From positions 4,228 through 42,303 of the forward strand of contig NZ_MUFB01000013.1 in assembly GCF_001996005.1 (NCBI RefSeq): a DNA stretch of 38,076 nt. Direction: 5' to 3'. The notes under the pieces are model-generated. The model ran no database searches, had not been told where the DNA came from, and saw nothing but the letters and a program-made list of their open reading frames with translations. This stretch comes from Salinivibrio siamensis (GTDB taxonomy: Bacteria; Pseudomonadota; Gammaproteobacteria; Enterobacterales; Vibrionaceae). Numbering within the stretch: position 1 is the first letter of the stretch; each line of letters opens with the position of its first letter. Made by a program: the position numbers and the translations under genes. Positions 28,945 to 35,399 of this stretch are shown here, piece by piece.

Positions 28945-29912
28945 CAGCGGTAACGCCTGACCAAGCTGCTCCCCGTTCACTGACGGTCCCGCTCGACCGC
29001 TTTTATCAATATCAGCTCAGCGAACGGGGCCTTAGTGCCCATACGCAACGCAATTATCAGCGCCAGTTAGATAAGATTGTCGACTTTCTGACCGCGCGGG
29101 GTATCGCCCATTGGCAAGACGTGGATGCGGATTGGGTGCGACAAATTTCGAGCCAAGCCAAACGCGATGGCCTTAAACCGGGCAGTATTGCGTTGCGGCT
29201 GTCCGCACTGCGCAGCTTTTTCGACTACCTCGTTCTCACCGAGCAGCTCGCGGCTAATCCGGCCAAAGGGGTCGCCGCGCCTAAGCAAGGGCGTCAGTTG
29301 CCGAAAAACCTTGATGTGGATGAAATGAATCAACTGCTCGAGGTGGATCAAGACGACCCGCTGTCGGTGCGTGATCGGGCGATGATGGAGCTGATGTATG
29401 GCGCAGGATTGCGTTTAGCCGAGCTGGTTGATTTAAACGTGCGTGATGTCTCGGTACGTAAAGGGGATTTGCGTGTCACCGGTAAAGGGGAAAAAGAGCG
29501 CATCGTGCCTTTTTCCGGCATGGCCAAAACCTGGGTAATGAACTGGCTGAAAGTGCGTAACCAGCTCCTCAAAGGGCCAGAAGAGGCGCTATTTATCTCT
29601 AAACTTGGCCAGCGAATTTCGCACCGTAGCGTGCAAAAACGTATGGCGGAGTGGGGACAAAAGCAGGCGGTGAATAGCCACATTAATCCTCACAAACTGC
29701 GTCATAGTTTTGCCACTCACATGCTGGAGTCGTCCGGGGATTTGCGCGCAGTGCAAGAGCTTCTCGGCCATGCCGATTTAAGTACCACACAAATCTATAC
29801 CCATTTGGACTTTCAACACTTGGCGAAAGTGTATGACGCGGCGCATCCCCGTGCCCGCAGCACAGAGGCTAGCAAACCTCGTGCAGGTAAAAAAAACAAC
29901 TCGGAGTCGTGA
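28941..29912 (+). CDS. xerC: Site-specific tyrosine recombinase XerC
   Basis: This 323-aa recombinase acts with XerD at dif to resolve chromosome dimers. The N-terminal SAM-like core-binding domain covers about 15-105 and the catalytic domain about 125-305. Catalytic residues visible are R158 (GAGLRLAEL), K182 (GKGEKER), H251 and R254 ([10 protein letters not shown]), H277 (LGHADLS) and nucleophile Y286 (TQIYTH). The GTG start at 28941 overlaps the DUF484 stop. The C-terminal tail after about 305 is basic and not conserved. The gene lies inside the dapF block, not beside an integrated element, so it is the housekeeping recombinase and not a phage integrase. Confidence 0.96.
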
Positions 29913-29913
29913 T

Positions 29914-30642
29914 ATGAAATTTTATCGTCGCTTAAACGCGTTTGATGCGGTGAGTTTTGACTTGGATGATACCTTGTACGATAACTGGCCGGTGATCGCA
30001 CGTGCGGAGGCGGCGCTAAACGACTACTTGGGCGAGCACTGCCCGCCGCTCGCCGCGCTTGATAAAGCGACCCTTGCGGGATTTCGCCGCCAAGCCCGTG
30101 ATGAGAACCCTGCCCAACGCTTTGATGTTACCGCGATGCGGGTTGCCCAGCTGACGCTTGCCGGTGAACATGTTGGTTTAACCGCGGAGAAGGCGCGCGC
30201 ACAAGCCCAAGCGGCGACCACCCTCTTTTGCGGATATCGCAGTGATTTTACCCCGCCGGCGCAAAGTTTGGCTTACTTAAAAGCCTGGTCCGAGAAACTG
30301 CCATTGGTGGCCATCACCAACGGTAACGTCGACACCGATGCGATTGGCCTGACGCCGTTTTTCCAGCATATTTTCCGTGCCGGTGAACACGGGGCGGCCA
30401 AGCCGAGTCCAGAGATGTTTGATAAAGCTGCGCAGGCCTTAGGCATCGCCCCGGCGCGTATTTTACATGTGGGCGATCACTTAAGTTCGGATGTAGCTGG
30501 CGCGCGCCAAGCGGGCATGCAAGCATGTTGGATCCGCCCAGAGCGCCAATCCCCCATGATGCATAAAGGACGCACCTTACCGGATGTGGCGATCGACGAT
30601 TTATCTGAGCTCGATACCCTTATTCAGCAACGGCACCGCTAA
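29914..30642 (+). CDS. yigB: HAD-superfamily phosphatase YigB (FMN phosphatase)
   Basis: This 242-aa cytosolic phosphatase has HAD motif I FDLDDT with nucleophile D16 and acid D18. Motif II lies in LVAITNGN, the motif III lysine is in GAAKPSPEMF and motif IV is in HVGDHLSSDVAGARQAG. The E. coli orthologue YigB dephosphorylates FMN in riboflavin metabolism. The frame is open further upstream inside xerC (from 29833), but the start at 29914 gives the family N-terminus MKFYRRLNAFDAVSFD and has GGAG upstream. It follows xerC by 1 base. Its stop codon overlaps the stop of the convergent DoxX gene inside a hairpin. Confidence 0.94.
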   Translation: MKFYRRLNAFDAVSFDLDDTLYDNWPVIARAEAALNDYLGEHCPPLAALDKATLAGFRRQARDENPAQRFDVTAMRVAQLTLAGEHVGLTAEKARAQAQAATTLFCGYRSDFTPPAQSLAYLKAWSEKLPLVAITNGNVDTDAIGLTPFFQHIFRAGEHGAAKPSPEMFDKAAQALGIAPARILHVGDHLSSDVAGARQAGMQACWIRPERQSPMMHKGRTLPDVAIDDLSELDTLIQQRHR

Positions 30643-30651
30643 TGGGTGCCG
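30631..30651. terminator. Hairpin spanning the overlapping stop codons of yigB and the buf operon
   Basis: CGGCACC (30631-30637) pairs perfectly with GGTGCCG (30645-30651). The loop holds CTAA (30639-30642), which encodes TAG of the minus-strand gene and TAA of yigB. No T tract is visible. It may act as a two-way stop or 3'-end protector for two converging transcripts. Confidence 0.6.
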
Positions 30652-31082
30652 CTTGGTTTGCGGGCTAGCCAGTTATCGAGGTTAAGCCACCCCGGCCCCC
30701 ACACACTGACCACCAACAAGATCACGCCCCACATTATGTGGTCATCATAGCCACGCTCCCATAGCAGTGGATAGGAGGCGACCGCGACGATGTTGAACAC
30801 AAATAACGCCAACGTCATTGGCCGTGCGAGCAGGCCCAAAGCAACAAATATCGGCAAAATCAGCTCCGCCGCGGTCCCTAAATAAGCGGCCAGCTGCCAC
30901 GGCAGCAACGGCACTTGATACTCATACTCGAACAGGTATAGGGTGCTGTCCCAATTTTGGTATTTGATCAGCCCGGATTGAAAAAAAATCCACGCTACAT
31001 AGACGCGACCCACCAGAAGAAGTAGCGGTTGCAGTGGGGTAAGCGCGCGGGCGAAGGTGTGATTGATTGTGGTTAGCCACAT
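30639..31082 (-). CDS. bufD: DoxX-family membrane protein of the bufferin operon
   Basis: This 147-aa integral membrane protein has four predicted TM helices (about 17-37, 62-80, 86-106, 115-133). It shows the DoxX hallmark GRVYVAWIFFQSGLIKYQNW near residues 25-44 and AELILPIFVALGLLARP. DoxX proteins often accompany DUF692/DUF2282 loci and have been named BufD in bufferin operons. The role is unknown; an electron-transfer or membrane redox function has been suggested for the family. It is the last gene of the four-gene operon, 3 bp after the DUF2063 gene, and its stop overlaps that of convergent yigB. Confidence 0.85.
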   Translation of the reverse strand: MWLTTINHTFARALTPLQPLLLLVGRVYVAWIFFQSGLIKYQNWDSTLYLFEYEYQVPLLPWQLAAYLGTAAELILPIFVALGLLARPMTLALFVFNIVAVASYPLLWERGYDDHIMWGVILLVVSVWGPGWLNLDNWLARKPSGTH

Positions 31083-31085
31083 GGC

Positions 31086-31826
31086 TTACTCCTTAGCATT
31101 GCAGGCAGTCGTTGGGGTGGTAAATGCATTCATGGCCGCGAGCTCAGACACACACGCCAGTTGCGTCTCTGACAGGGCGCCTAATGGAGTGTGTGGGCAG
31201 GCGTTGAGCACACTGACATGATGGGTATTGAGCGCGTACCAATGCACCTTGTCTTGGTTAGCAACCAGTAATAAAGCTTGCGGCTTCTCGACCACCAAGC
31301 CTTCGAACTGCTCCGTGGCGATCGCTTGCCACACGTCACTGACTGCGTAGTCGCTTTCAAATAGACGCGCTTGATGGTTGAGCGGTAAACAAACCTGCGC
31401 TTGTTGCTCAGGGCTTAGCGACGCGAGCGCGCTGCCTTCAAACGCCGGAGAGGGAGGGGTGAGAGTGAGCACCACTTGCGCCCACTCAAAACGGGCAAGT
31501 TCGGCGCAACAAGGCACGGGCTCGATAATATTGGGCAGGGCGCGCAAGGTCGCATCGAACTGTGCGCCATAGTCTTCCATCACCCCGGTTTGCGGGGGAT
31601 GCACCATCGCATGATGACGCGCTACCGCATCAAAACACGCCTCACCCAGTAGTGCACAGGTCTTGGGATACACGCATTTTAGCGTGTCAGTGAGGGTGAC
31701 CACATAATGGTTGCGATAAATCTGCAATCGCTTGTCAGCGGCAACGCGACCATCTTTTATCGGCAGCGGCTGAGGGTCATCTCGCAATGTGGCAGCAAAG
31801 GCCTGCTGCAAGGTTGCCAGCGTCAT
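31086..31826 (-). CDS. bufC: DUF2063 partner protein BufC
   Basis: This 246-aa protein has the DUF2063 domain in its N-terminal part (about 4-95: LATLQQAFAATLRD, RLQIYRNHYVVTLTDTLKCVYPKTCALLGEACFDAVAR). A less conserved C-terminal domain follows. DUF2063 proteins are the standard partners of DUF692 (MNIO) enzymes and are thought to recruit the precursor peptide to the enzyme. Its ATG overlaps the DUF692 stop by 4 bases, so the two proteins are probably made in equal amounts and form a complex. The length is normal for bufferin-type BufC. Confidence 0.9.
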   Translation of the reverse strand: MTLATLQQAFAATLRDDPQPLPIKDGRVAADKRLQIYRNHYVVTLTDTLKCVYPKTCALLGEACFDAVARHHAMVHPPQTGVMEDYGAQFDATLRALPNIIEPVPCCAELARFEWAQVVLTLTPPSPAFEGSALASLSPEQQAQVCLPLNHQARLFESDYAVSDVWQAIATEQFEGLVVEKPQALLLVANQDKVHWYALNTHHVSVLNACPHTPLGALSETQLACVSELAAMNAFTTPTTACNAKE

Positions 31827-32662
31827 ACCGCCTCCTTATGTCGAGCCAGTCGGTGGTGGGCTTTGGCCGCTTCTGCTAACAATCGCTCGGGTGCGGGCAA
31901 GTCGCTATCCCACTCAATGAGGGTGTGGCGAGGGCCGTGGCGGTCAATCCACTGTTGATAGAGCGTCCATACTGCCTCGCTAACCGGCTGGTTATGGGTG
32001 TCTATCCAAATTTCTCCTGCGGGGGTGTGTTTGACGGTAAACCCAGCAAGGTGAATTTCTTTCACCGCATGGGCGGGAATCGCGTCAAGGTAGGTGCTGG
32101 CGATGAAATCATGGTTAAACGCGCTGACATGAACGTTATTTAAATCGAGCAGTAAATCGCAGCCCGTGCGAGCGTGTACTTCGGCGAGAAAGTCCCATTC
32201 GTGGTAGTCACCCTGAGCAAAGCTTAAATAGCTCGATGGGTTCTCAATCAGCAGAGGACGCTGCAGCGCGTCTTGAACCTGTTGCACATTGGTGCAAAAC
32301 ACCCGCAATGCCTGCTCGGTGTAAGGGAGGGGGAGTAAATCGTGAAAGTGCTGCCCGTCTATCCGGCTCCAACTTAAATGGTCAGACACAAACAGTGGCT
32401 CGACGTGTTTGACCAGTGTACACAATTTGTCTAAATGTGCCCGATCAAGCGGCTCGTCGCTCCCCAGCGACAGCCCCACGCCATGACAGCTGATGGCGTA
32501 ATCCTCACGTAACCGCATCAGGGTTGAGAAGGCAGGACGGTGGGGACGGAAATAGTTTTCACTGTGAATTTCTAACCAGCCAAGCTTTGGGCGATATTGG
32601 TCGAAGTAGGCGAGATGTGGTTGTCTGAGCCCCACGCCGGTCAAAACGGTTGCCTCATCCAT
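31823..32662 (-). CDS. bufB: DUF692 (MNIO) peptide-modifying enzyme BufB
   Basis: This 279-aa TIM-barrel enzyme belongs to the multinuclear non-haem iron-dependent oxidative enzymes. Likely iron ligands are visible in the conserved motifs: EIHSENYF (about 31-38), SCHGVGLSLG, VSDHLSW, LLLDLNNVHVSA, EIHLAGF, WIDTHNQPV and LIEWDSDLP, which supply the His, Asp, Glu and Asn residues expected of the family. MNIOs oxidise cysteines of ribosomally made peptides; bufferin BufB enzymes are reported to turn cysteines of the BufA peptide into thiooxazoles. The substrate is presumably the four-cysteine peptide encoded 54 bp upstream. The GGAG ribosome binding site is good, and a hairpin lies in the gap to bufA. 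Confidence 0.92.
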   Translation of the reverse strand: MDEATVLTGVGLRQPHLAYFDQYRPKLGWLEIHSENYFRPHRPAFSTLMRLREDYAISCHGVGLSLGSDEPLDRAHLDKLCTLVKHVEPLFVSDHLSWSRIDGQHFHDLLPLPYTEQALRVFCTNVQQVQDALQRPLLIENPSSYLSFAQGDYHEWDFLAEVHARTGCDLLLDLNNVHVSAFNHDFIASTYLDAIPAHAVKEIHLAGFTVKHTPAGEIWIDTHNQPVSEAVWTLYQQWIDRHGPRHTLIEWDSDLPAPERLLAEAAKAHHRLARHKEAV

Positions 32663-32689
32663 GGTTGCTCCTTGTGGTCAAATGACAAA

Positions 32690-32708
32690 GCCCGGGGTTA
32701 GCCCGGGC
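32690..32708 (-). terminator. Attenuator-like hairpin between bufA and bufB
   Basis: On the minus strand GCCCGGG (plus 32702-32708) pairs perfectly with CCCGGGC (plus 32690-32696) across a 5-base loop, followed by CTTTGTCATTT, a poor T tract. It lies 8 bases after the bufA stop and could lower transcription into bufBCD, giving more peptide than enzyme. Confidence 0.6.
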
Positions 32709-32716
32709 GCGCCATA

Positions 32717-32980
32717 TCACGATGACGAGGTACTGCCGCCGGCTAAGCGATCGCACAAGCCTTTTGGTACCATCACAAACGCATCTTTTTGGCCGTCTTC
32801 GGTGGAGGTGCCCGCGCAGGAGCTGGTGTTGGTGGCGCAGTCATTTTGTCCGGCTTTGGCGACGCCATAGCATTTTTCTTTTTCTGCCGCATGGGCCGGT
32901 GCGCTAGTGAGTGTGGTCGCGCCTACGGCCAGCAATCCTGTCACAGCGGCGGCAACCGCTAGGTTAGTATGTTTCATCAT
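32717..32980 (-). CDS. bufA: Bufferin precursor peptide BufA (DUF2282), secreted, four cysteines
   Basis: This 87-aa DUF2282 protein has a long Sec signal peptide (about 1-31, cleavage after PAHA). The mature part of about 56 residues has exactly four cysteines: C37 ([13 protein letters not shown]), C48, C55 (SSCAGTS) and C76 (VPKGLC). The [13 protein letters not shown], SCAGTS and DAFVxVPKGLC motifs define bufferin-1 type precursors. Bufferins are exported RiPPs that bind copper in the periplasm, with the two central cysteines reported as the modified pair. The C-terminus ends in an unusual GGSTSSS tail. ATG at 32980 and 32977 are both possible, with AGAGGA just upstream. A possible promoter (TTGCGC, 18 bases, TTTATA on the minus strand) lies upstream. 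It is the first gene of bufABCD. Confidence 0.9.
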
Positions 32981-33167
32981 GCTTCCTCTTCTTGTTCCGT
33001 GTTGGTGTTATCAGCCCACTGATTGGTGGTGGGCATATAAACCAAGATAGGAAAACACTGCGCAATCTTTCACCACTTAAGCGATTTTTTGCGTGCTGGT
33101 GGCTAACCTGCTGAATTATTGTTTAAAAAAGTTGCGTCGGGATCGGGCGCGCAATTTAGTGGCGAGC

Positions 33168-33201
33168 TGGTATAATCGCTAACCAGTGTATAAATACCCA
33201 G
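33168..33201 (+). promoter_or_regulatory. uvrD promoter (extended -10) with LexA-like box
   Basis: TGGTATAAT (33168-33176) is a perfect -10 with the extended TGn element. Downstream, bases 33186-33201 (GTGTATAAATACCCAG) match my recollection of the E. coli uvrD LexA box at 14 of 16 positions. The box would cover the start of transcription, as needed for SOS repression. A recognisable -35 is lacking. Confidence 0.6.
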
Positions 33202-33218: not shown

Positions 33219-35399
33219 ATGGACGTATCAACTCTTCTTGACGGACTCAACGACAAACAGCGTGAAGCCGTGGCCGCGCCGCTCGGCAACCATTTGGTGT
33301 TGGCAGGTGCTGGCAGTGGTAAAACCCGGGTGCTGGTTCATCGTATGGCTTGGCTGATGCGGGTCGAAGAGGCATCGCCGTTCTCGGTGATGGCGGTCAC
33401 CTTCACCAACAAAGCGGCAGCGGAAATGCGCGGTCGTATCGAGCAATTGATGCAAGGCACCGCCTCTGGCATGTGGTGTGGCACCTTCCACGGCATTTGC
33501 CATCGTATTCTCCGTGCCCACTATTTAGACGCCAACCTGCCACAAGACTTCCAAATTCTTGATTCAGACGATCAGCAGCGTTTGCTACGTCGGTTAATTA
33601 AAGCGCAAAACTTGGATGAAAAACACTGGCCCGCCAAGCAAGCGAGTTGGTATATCAATGGCAAAAAAGACGAAGGCTTGCGCCCCAAGCACATTGATAC
33701 CCACCATGATCCGGTTGAAAGTACTTGGCTGCGGATTTATCAGGCTTATCAAGAAGCCTGTGATCGCGCCGGTTTGGTGGATTTTGCGGAGATCTTGCTG
33801 CGAACCTTAGAGTTATTGCGCGATAAAGCGGTGATCCGCGAACACTATCAAGCACGTTTCCAGCACATTTTGGTGGATGAGTTCCAAGATACCAACAACA
33901 TCCAATATGCTTGGTTGCGCATGATGGCGGGCCAACAGGCGCATGTGATGATTGTGGGGGACGACGACCAATCCATTTACGGCTGGCGTGGCGCGAAAGT
34001 CGAAAATATTCAGCGTTTTCTGGATGATTTCACCACCCCGCAGACCATTCGTTTGGAGCAAAACTACCGCTCAACCAGTACGATTTTGCAAGCGGCGAAC
34101 ACCCTGATTGAAAACAATGCCGACCGGATGGGCAAAAGCCTGTGGACCGAGGGCAAAGAGGGTGAGCCCATCTCTGTGTATGCCGGTTTTAATGAGCTGG
34201 ATGAAGCGCGTTTTGTGGTCGGGAAAATCAAAACCTGGCAAGACGAAGGCGGCGCGCTCACCGACAGCGCGATTTTATACCGCAACAACGCCCAATCTCG
34301 GGTGCTGGAAGAAGCCTTAATTCAAGCCGGTCTCCCTTATCGTATCTACGGCGGCATGCGCTTTTTCGAACGTCAGGAAATCAAAGATGCGCTGGCCTAT
34401 TTACGTTTGATGGCGAATCGCAATGACGATGCGGCGTTTGAGCGGGTGGTAAACACGCCCACTCGGGGGATTGGTGATCGCACCCTTGAGACGCTTCGTG
34501 GCGCGGCGCGCGATCGTGGCCAAACCTTATGGCACACGGCCGAGCAAATCTTGGCAGAAAAAGCACTGGCAGGACGCGCAGCCAATGCGCTGGGCCGGTT
34601 TATCGAGCTGGTCAATGCGCTAGAAGATGACACCCGTGACATGGCACTGTATCAACAAACCGATGCGGTGATCCGTCACTCCGGCTTGCGCGCCATGTAC
34701 GAGCAAGAAAAAGGTGAAAAAGCGCAAGCGCGTGTCGATAACTTGGAAGAGTTGGTGACGGCTACGCGCCAATTTACGCCTCCTGAAGAGGCGGAAGCGG
34801 AAGGGATGACACCGCTGTCGGCGTTCTTGGCCCATGCCGCCCTTGAGGCCGGTGAAGGCCAAGCGGACGAGTTTGATGATGCGGTCCAATTGATGACCTT
34901 ACACAGTGCCAAAGGCCTCGAGTTCCCCTTAGTCTTTATGGTCGGGGTGGAAGAGGGCATGTTCCCCAGCCAGATGTCAGCCGAAGAAGCGGGCCGCTTA
35001 GAAGAAGAGCGTCGCCTTTGCTATGTCGGCATGACGCGAGCGATGGAAAAACTCTATCTGACCTACGCAGAAATGCGCCGTGTGTACGGCAAAGACATGT
35101 TCCATAAGATCTCGCGCTTTATTCGTGAGCTGCCCGAGGCCTGCTTGGAAGAAGTGCGGATGCGTGCCAATGTCTCACGCCCTGCCGCAAGCGGTGGCCG
35201 TTTTTCCAAAACGCAGACTCAGGAGAACTTTAACCAAACCGGGTTTAGTTTGGGTCAGCGGGTTCAACACCCTAAATTTGGTGAAGGCACCATCATCAAC
35301 TTTGAAGGCAGTGGCGGACAAAGCCGCGTGCAAGTTGCCTTTAATGGGGAAGGGATTAAGTGGTTGGTGACTCAGTACGCCAAACTGGAAGCGCTTTAA
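33219..35399 (+). CDS. uvrD: DNA helicase II, UvrD
   Basis: This 726-aa superfamily 1A 3'-5' helicase works in nucleotide excision and mismatch repair. It has Walker A AGAGSGKT at 29-36, motif Ia [11 protein letters not shown], motif II VDEFQDTNN, motif [17 protein letters not shown], motif [11 protein letters not shown], motif V LMTLHSAKGLEFP and motif VI CYVGMTRA. The C-terminal Tudor-like tail (LGQRVQHPKFGEGTIINFEGSG...) is the UvrD module that binds RNA polymerase. The frame opens earlier at GTG 33186, but that codon lies in the LexA-like box. The start at 33219 gives MDVSTLLDGLNDKQREAVAAP, like E. coli, with AGGTGG 3 bases before it. SOS control is likely. In E. coli, uvrD directly follows yigB; here the buf operon lies between them. 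Confidence 0.97.
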   Translation: MDVSTLLDGLNDKQREAVAAPLGNHLVLAGAGSGKTRVLVHRMAWLMRVEEASPFSVMAVTFTNKAAAEMRGRIEQLMQGTASGMWCGTFHGICHRILRAHYLDANLPQDFQILDSDDQQRLLRRLIKAQNLDEKHWPAKQASWYINGKKDEGLRPKHIDTHHDPVESTWLRIYQAYQEACDRAGLVDFAEILLRTLELLRDKAVIREHYQARFQHILVDEFQDTNNIQYAWLRMMAGQQAHVMIVGDDDQSIYGWRGAKVENIQRFLDDFTTPQTIRLEQNYRSTSTILQAANTLIENNADRMGKSLWTEGKEGEPISVYAGFNELDEARFVVGKIKTWQDEGGALTDSAILYRNNAQSRVLEEALIQAGLPYRIYGGMRFFERQEIKDALAYLRLMANRNDDAAFERVVNTPTRGIGDRTLETLRGAARDRGQTLWHTAEQILAEKALAGRAANALGRFIELVNALEDDTRDMALYQQTDAVIRHSGLRAMYEQEKGEKAQARVDNLEELVTATRQFTPPEEAEAEGMTPLSAFLAHAALEAGEGQADEFDDAVQLMTLHSAKGLEFPLVFMVGVEEGMFPSQMSAEEAGRLEEERRLCYVGMTRAMEKLYLTYAEMRRVYGKDMFHKISRFIRELPEACLEEVRMRANVSRPAASGGRFSKTQTQENFNQTGFSLGQRVQHPKFGEGTIINFEGSGGQSRVQVAFNGEGIKWLVTQYAKLEAL

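Follow-up and report, generated by a model that had tools for sequence, protein, structure and literature searches.

The Bufferin 1 operon of Caulobacter vibrioides (bufA1B1C1D1, CC3254–CC3257) consists of four genes (PMC12452194, PMC3511200). They encode a DUF2282 precursor with a Sec signal and four cysteines, an MNIO enzyme, its DUF2063 partner and a DoxX protein. Buf1 bufferins belong to DUF2282, carry a Sec signal and serve as periplasmic copper chelators; the two central cysteines are converted to thiooxazoles, and the two outer cysteines form a disulphide (PMC12452194). The characterised Buf1 binds copper and improves growth under copper (PMC12452194). Salinivibrio siamensis has these four genes in identical order at positions 30639–32980 of the stretch of DNA analysed here, a window of 38,076 nt from contig NZ_MUFB01000013.1. 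Plain coordinates below are positions in this window, and the operon, referred to as bufABCD, is read on the minus strand.

Several other described systems are close to this locus. The gold-induced gene (GIG) operons of Cupriavidus metallidurans (gigPABT) and Legionella pneumophila encode the same four families; they are induced by copper and gold, and gig plays a part in resistance to copper (PMC5413113, PMC10304878). Their neighbouring regulators differ from those of Salinivibrio (RpoQ-RsqA is assumed in C. metallidurans), and the Legionella copy is carried by an integrative and conjugative element (ICE), whereas the Salinivibrio copy occupies a fixed chromosomal locus. The captophorins oxazolin (hvfABCX), gonophorin and fontiphorin resemble the Salinivibrio system in the MNIO enzyme with a PME1 partner, the thiooxazole chemistry (predicted in Salinivibrio), the link to copper and, often, a DoxX protein; bufferin clusters have themselves been grouped as captophorins, and MNIO-PME1 clusters are enriched in Vibrionales (PMC13097082). 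Unlike captophorins with EGKCG-repeat precursors, Salinivibrio has a compact DUF2282 peptide with four cysteines, and the HvfC and HvfX models score below their cut-offs.

The described systems also differ in their control. Caulobacter uses the extracytoplasmic function (ECF) sigma factor sigmaF, the anti-sigma factor NrsF (DUF1109) and a GTAACC-N16-CGAA promoter (PMC3511200). In Haemophilus influenzae, the ECF sigma factor RpoE2, encoded outside the operon, controls an MNIO cluster together with HrsE (PMC7907618), and a similar arrangement is predicted here for Salinivibrio. HrsE is a cytoplasmic anti-sigma factor of 67 residues, whereas the Salinivibrio candidate is a single-span DUF3379 protein of 234 residues.

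Identity and predicted product of the operon

The gene bufA (32717–32980, minus strand) encodes the DUF2282 bufferin precursor of 87 residues, bufB (31823–32662, minus) the MNIO (DUF692) bufferin maturase of 279 residues, bufC (31086–31826, minus) the MNIO partner of 246 residues with DUF2063 and a C-terminal domain of the RiPP recognition element (RRE) type, and bufD (30639–31082, minus) a DoxX-family membrane protein of 147 residues, as also judged from hydropathy windows. The intergenic gaps are 54 nt (bufA/bufB), −4 nt (bufB/bufC) and 3 nt (bufC/bufD), and a Shine-Dalgarno-like sequence is located ahead of each gene. An earlier sequence-only reading had claimed these four families in tight order on one strand; the coordinates, strand, order and protein lengths all match. 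According to hidden Markov model (HMM) searches, the four proteins belong to DUF2282 (PF10048, 8.4e-24), MbnB_TglH_ChrH (DUF692, PF05114, 2.4e-102), DUF2063 (PF09836, 4.3e-21) and DoxX (PF07681, 5e-17), all above the Pfam gathering scores. The 87-residue protein falls in DUF2282 with 83.8 bits against a cut-off of 22.4, and BufB matches the NCBIfam equivalog MNIO_BufB (NF050167) with 369.3 bits against a cut-off of 310.

BufA contains exactly four cysteines, at positions 37, 48, 55 and 76. Its N-terminus shows an n-region, a hydrophobic stretch and an AHA/AEKEK cleavage motif, which correspond to a Sec-type signal peptide judged by inspection and kept in relatives. Both features had been proposed from the sequence, and both agree with our count and inspection. 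The closest relatives of the strain belong to Salinivibrio. Conservation was analysed using 80 Vibrionaceae contigs from Salinivibrio, Vibrio, Photobacterium, Enterovibrio, Veronia and Thaumasiovibrio. Four cysteines are found in 79 of the 80 precursors, and the exception (L070) is a short, mis-started call. The C-terminal ending GGSTSSS, once thought to be possibly special to this strain, is a variant of the GG-S-T-x-S ending found through the Vibrionaceae in the family alignment, and a strain-specific tail was rejected. A search of the PDB with the BufA sequence gave no match.

Weak NCBIfam matches to BufA2, HvfB, HvfC, HvfX and MbnB would place the cluster in the BufA2, HvfA/oxazolin or methanobactin branch of the MNIO clusters instead of Buf1. 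These matches stay below their cut-offs, with 29.4 bits versus 60 for BufA2 (NF050166), 212 versus 360 for HvfB, 57 versus 142 for HvfC and 50 versus 80 for HvfX, and MbnB is likewise below its cut-off, whereas the DUF2282 and MNIO_BufB scores exceed theirs. In addition, the precursor has four cysteines, EGKCG repeats are not present in it, and it carries a Sec-type signal peptide instead of a leader. We regard such a placement as extremely improbable.

The enzyme pair is also consistent with Buf1. BufB has a match in the MNIO structure 3BWW. Their alignment includes the blocks HG, SDHLS, EN, LDLNN, HLAG, DTH and E-W-D, where the MNIO His, Asp, Glu and Asn residues are located, and these blocks are invariant or nearly so across 20 Vibrionaceae BufB proteins. 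At a threshold of 1e-3, no PDB sequence matched BufC. For the AlphaFold2 model of BufC (pLDDT, the predicted local distance difference test score, of 85.5), the only significant structural matches were TglI (8hi7, 8hci) and the gonococcal PME1 protein 3DEE, and they cover most of the model. TglI is the partner of the MNIO TglH, and a DUF2063-plus-RRE partner defines this type of cluster (PMC12452194). Thus, such a partner is present.

The genes bufA, bufB, bufC and bufD are found together in all 80 Vibrionaceae contigs, and therefore a chance grouping is excluded. Since the HMMs, the gene order, the cysteine pattern, the BufC fold and the conservation through the family agree, we consider that 30639–32980 is almost certainly a complete and ordinary Buf1-type bufferin operon, in function as well as in identity, and the sequence-only interpretation as a bufferin operon is upheld. 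The locus is one more complete member of an already described class.

Following the characterised system, BufA would be synthesised with a Sec signal peptide, and the MNIO BufB with its partner BufC (DUF2063 and RRE) would oxidise Cys48 and Cys55 to 5-thiooxazoles in the cytoplasm. These residues are the two central cysteines of BufA, and match the pair modified in Buf1 (PMC12452194). The modified peptide would then be exported, a Cys37–Cys76 disulphide would be formed, and the product would bind copper in the periplasm; BufD (DoxX) would act as an inner-membrane accessory. Cysteine modification, export and copper binding in the Salinivibrio strain are thus presumed by analogy, and on the basis of the characterised homologues a periplasmic copper buffer appears to be the right assignment for the operon.

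The operon might instead serve another stress, for example hypochlorite or a different thiol stress, or else chromate, cadmium or gold, and copper binding would then be secondary. Caulobacter sigmaF, which controls an operon of this type, responds to chromium and cadmium (PMC3511200), the related DoxX/DUF692/DUF2063 operon of H. influenzae is linked to RpoE2 under hypochlorite (PMC7907618), and the Legionella GIG operon responds to gold as well as copper (PMC5413113). This explanation is nevertheless unlikely in view of the copper binding and improved growth under copper of the characterised Buf1 (PMC12452194) and the contribution of gig to copper resistance in C. metallidurans (PMC10304878).

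A promoter-like element and a candidate sigma factor

The element TGAAAG-ATTGCGCAGTGTTTTC-CTATC (33046–33072, minus strand) ends 65 nt ahead of the bufA start codon. It is predicted to be the ECF-type promoter of bufABCD, with the −35 TGAAAG at 33067–33072, a 16-nt spacer and the −10 CTATC at 33046–33050. The exact pattern TGAAAK-N16-CTWTC is present in 59 of the 80 bufA upstream regions (shuffles: mean 0.055, maximum 1), with 0 matches on the opposite strand, and a relaxed form in 68 of 80. Only the spacer of 16 is enriched, with 59 matches at 16 and one each at 12 and 17. In the weight matrix, TGAAA(G/T), a T-rich stretch and CT(A/T)TC are conserved, in most cases with a downstream TAAGCA. 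A scan with the sigma-70 consensus detected no promoter in the operon region, and a CueR-type palindrome gave no match in the window.

NrsF (PF06532) was not found in the genome, and the sigmaF-type site GTAACC-N16-CGAA was not found between bufA and uvrD, the divergent neighbouring gene. Control by sigmaF and NrsF was therefore rejected, and the predicted promoter of Salinivibrio is of another type than that of Caulobacter. Special regulation had been suggested for this operon together with the tail; the tail turns out to be unremarkable, but the predicted promoter and the probable sigma factor are unlike those of the sigmaF/NrsF system.

Three ECF sigma factors are present among the sigma-70 region-2 proteins of the genome: RpoE with RseAB, one with ChrR, and a PRK12517-type factor with a DUF3379 protein. 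The PRK12517-type ECF gene and the DUF3379 gene are unlinked to the buf operon; in G003, a Salinivibrio genome of two contigs, a distance of about 0.7 Mb separates the two loci. The DUF3379 gene of the strain (L111 1631–2335, own genome C59, minus strand) encodes a single-span protein of 234 residues, with about 78 residues followed by one hydrophobic span (79–97) and a domain presumed to be periplasmic. The rpoS gene is apparently split into two overlapping frames of 189 and 159 residues (L108 2024–3005, minus strand; contig C1, about 112.5–113.5 kb), which points either to a frameshift in this strain or to an error in sequencing.

The Salinivibrio ECF gene is itself preceded by TGAAAT-N16-CGGTC. 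Compared with the bufA element, the −35 is the same, the 16-nt spacer is the same, and the −10 is partly alike (CTATC versus CGGTC). In the ECF orthologues of other genomes, CGGTC is located at the gene start, in most cases inside the 5′ coding frame. The valine codon of the in-frame CGGTC is always GTC and always follows a codon ending in G, and GTC accounts for only a quarter of the valine codons in these genes. The fixed codon choice therefore indicates a constraint on the DNA and not on the protein. In families f10, f12, f13 and f25, the bufA promoters have the form (T/G)GAAAT-N16-CGGT(T/A), which links the bufA-type and the ECF-gene-type versions. In f12, another family of the order, an ECF orthologue (61% identical) and the DUF3379 gene are located divergently beside bufABCD (L127), and judging by coordinates at most about 2.5 kb separates bufA from a DUF3379 gene in approximately nine genomes of one f12 genus. 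Only one Salinivibrio genome (G001) is without buf, and the ECF and DUF3379 genes are also lost from it. At its buf site, yigB and uvrD are adjacent; at its sigma locus, the promoter and first codons stay, and the rest of the ECF and DUF3379 genes is gone. The junctions are clean.

The f12 adjacency, the partly matching promoter of the ECF gene itself, the linking form of the bufA promoters in the four families and the joint loss in G001 make the PRK12517-type ECF the candidate, and comparison of these sequences suggests that it is probably the sigma factor for bufABCD. Transcription of bufABCD would most likely start at TGAAAG-N16-CTATC, and the sigma factor, probably this unlinked ECF, would be held by the single-span DUF3379 protein as the candidate anti-sigma factor. 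In the presumed periplasmic, C-terminal domain of DUF3379, His113, Cys157 and His166 do not vary among 22 sequences drawn from about ten families, and it is a reasonable guess that the protein is a copper or thiol-oxidant switch acting through these residues. In the literature searched, no mention of DUF3379 was found, and no earlier tie of the ECF-DUF3379 pair to bufferins was found.

Several observations weigh against assigning the operon to this sigma factor. The joint loss is a single event in one draft genome, and the −10 CTATC of the Vibrionaceae buf promoters is only partly like the CGGTC of the ECF gene. The ECF-DUF3379 pair occurs without DUF2282 in four Vibrionaceae genomes (G085, G206, G226 and G236); the genes controlled in these four would reveal the rest of the sigma regulon. 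Among 248 genomes drawn evenly from the order, 73 have both DUF2282 and DUF3379, 12 only DUF2282, 50 only DUF3379 and 113 neither, a co-occurrence confounded by phylogeny. The 50 genomes with DUF3379 alone mean that the sigma factor has other targets, or that the link is not exclusive. A genome scan with the CTWTC-type pattern gave 13 matches; the ECF gene was not among them, and two of the best-looking others are inside genes. The wider CKRTC pattern gave 26 matches, three of them intergenic (upstream of bufA, the ECF gene and an ATP-binding cassette (ABC) transporter), but this pattern was built from the bufA and ECF-gene sites themselves. The third intergenic match (L114 1885; C23:88884) precedes an operon for an amino-acid ABC transporter by about 310 bp and could have arisen by chance.

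The same bufferin operon might also be read from TGAAAK-N16-CTWTC by RpoE, RpoH or the ChrR-linked ECF, the ECF-DUF3379 pair being incidental. The genome does carry the RpoE-RseAB and ECF-ChrR pairs, and a loose alignment of the element to the RpoH (TTGAAA-N15-like) or RpoE (GGAACTT-type −35) consensus is possible. However, the promoter region of rpoE itself, with GGAACTT, does not match the bufA element, whereas that of the PRK12517 gene shares its −35 and spacer; the f12 adjacency and the G001 loss are also specific to the DUF3379-linked ECF. Reading by another sigma factor is thus conceivable but doubtful. It is somewhat more likely than not that in Vibrionaceae and several related families of the order a dedicated ECF (PRK12517/NF009170) governs the bufferin operon. 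DUF3379 would then represent a novel kind of anti-sigma factor that senses periplasmic copper or thiol stress by one invariant cysteine and two invariant histidines.

The locus in the Vibrionaceae and its neighbours

The buf operon is divergent from uvrD wherever the contig includes uvrD (one contig of the 80 ends before it). The same site in all contigs indicates an ancestral, fixed locus, and the buf operon is an old family locus of Vibrionaceae. Bufferin-type operons travel on mobile elements elsewhere, as on the Legionella ICE (PMC5413113), and the operon could be a recently acquired island, that is, a horizontally transferred copper-resistance cassette. The uvrD-adjacent site is however the same in Vibrio, Photobacterium, Enterovibrio, Veronia and Thaumasiovibrio, and the one buf-less Salinivibrio is nested in a genus and family having buf, which reads as a secondary loss. 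Recent horizontal transfer was rejected by this synteny, and we consider it very improbable. DUF2282 is present in 85 of the 248 genomes of the order and in 14 of the 19 Vibrionaceae drawn. In some other families, a DUF2282 gene occurs without the adjoining enzyme pair; in L133 (2594–3444) bufA is followed by bufD, and in L131 bufA is near an ECF gene and the enzyme pair is not adjoining.

On the bufD side, a yigB-like HAD phosphatase gene (29833–30642, plus strand) is convergent, and the two stop codons overlap by 4 nt. In Photobacterium and some others, this far side carries yigB and then xerC. On the bufA side, uvrD (33219–35399, plus) is kept beside buf throughout the Vibrionaceae. Directly before uvrD, GTGTATAAATACCCAG (33186–33201) is SOS-box-like, and presumably resembles the E. 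coli uvrD SOS box; a scan with the full 20-nt SOS-box consensus, 3 mismatches allowed, gave no match. According to the location of GTGTATAAATACCCAG, the uvrD start is probably ATG 33219 and not GTG 33186. Between bufA and bufB, a GC stem-loop of 7 bp, all GC, is predicted at 32690–32708 (minus strand), and may favour the bufA transcript over bufBC. The Salinivibrio loci checked (the window and L008–L010) have it, whereas most other Vibrionaceae lack it in this form; a family-wide attenuator hairpin was thus rejected.

Significance for bufferin biology

The operon is one further member of a class whose known members number in the thousands, and it is itself of an already-known type; the regulation is likely the new part. 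Bufferins in the Vibrio family belong to an inherited, fixed locus and not to an accessory island. The ECF and DUF3379 pair, otherwise undescribed, is a specific candidate for bufferin control. If this assignment is true, it would give a named regulator and a promoter for bufferin expression across a large bacterial group. It would also be a further sigma/anti-sigma solution for the control of MNIO-modified RiPPs (ribosomally synthesised and post-translationally modified peptides) beside sigmaF-NrsF and RpoE2-HrsE, and would provide the first function for DUF3379.

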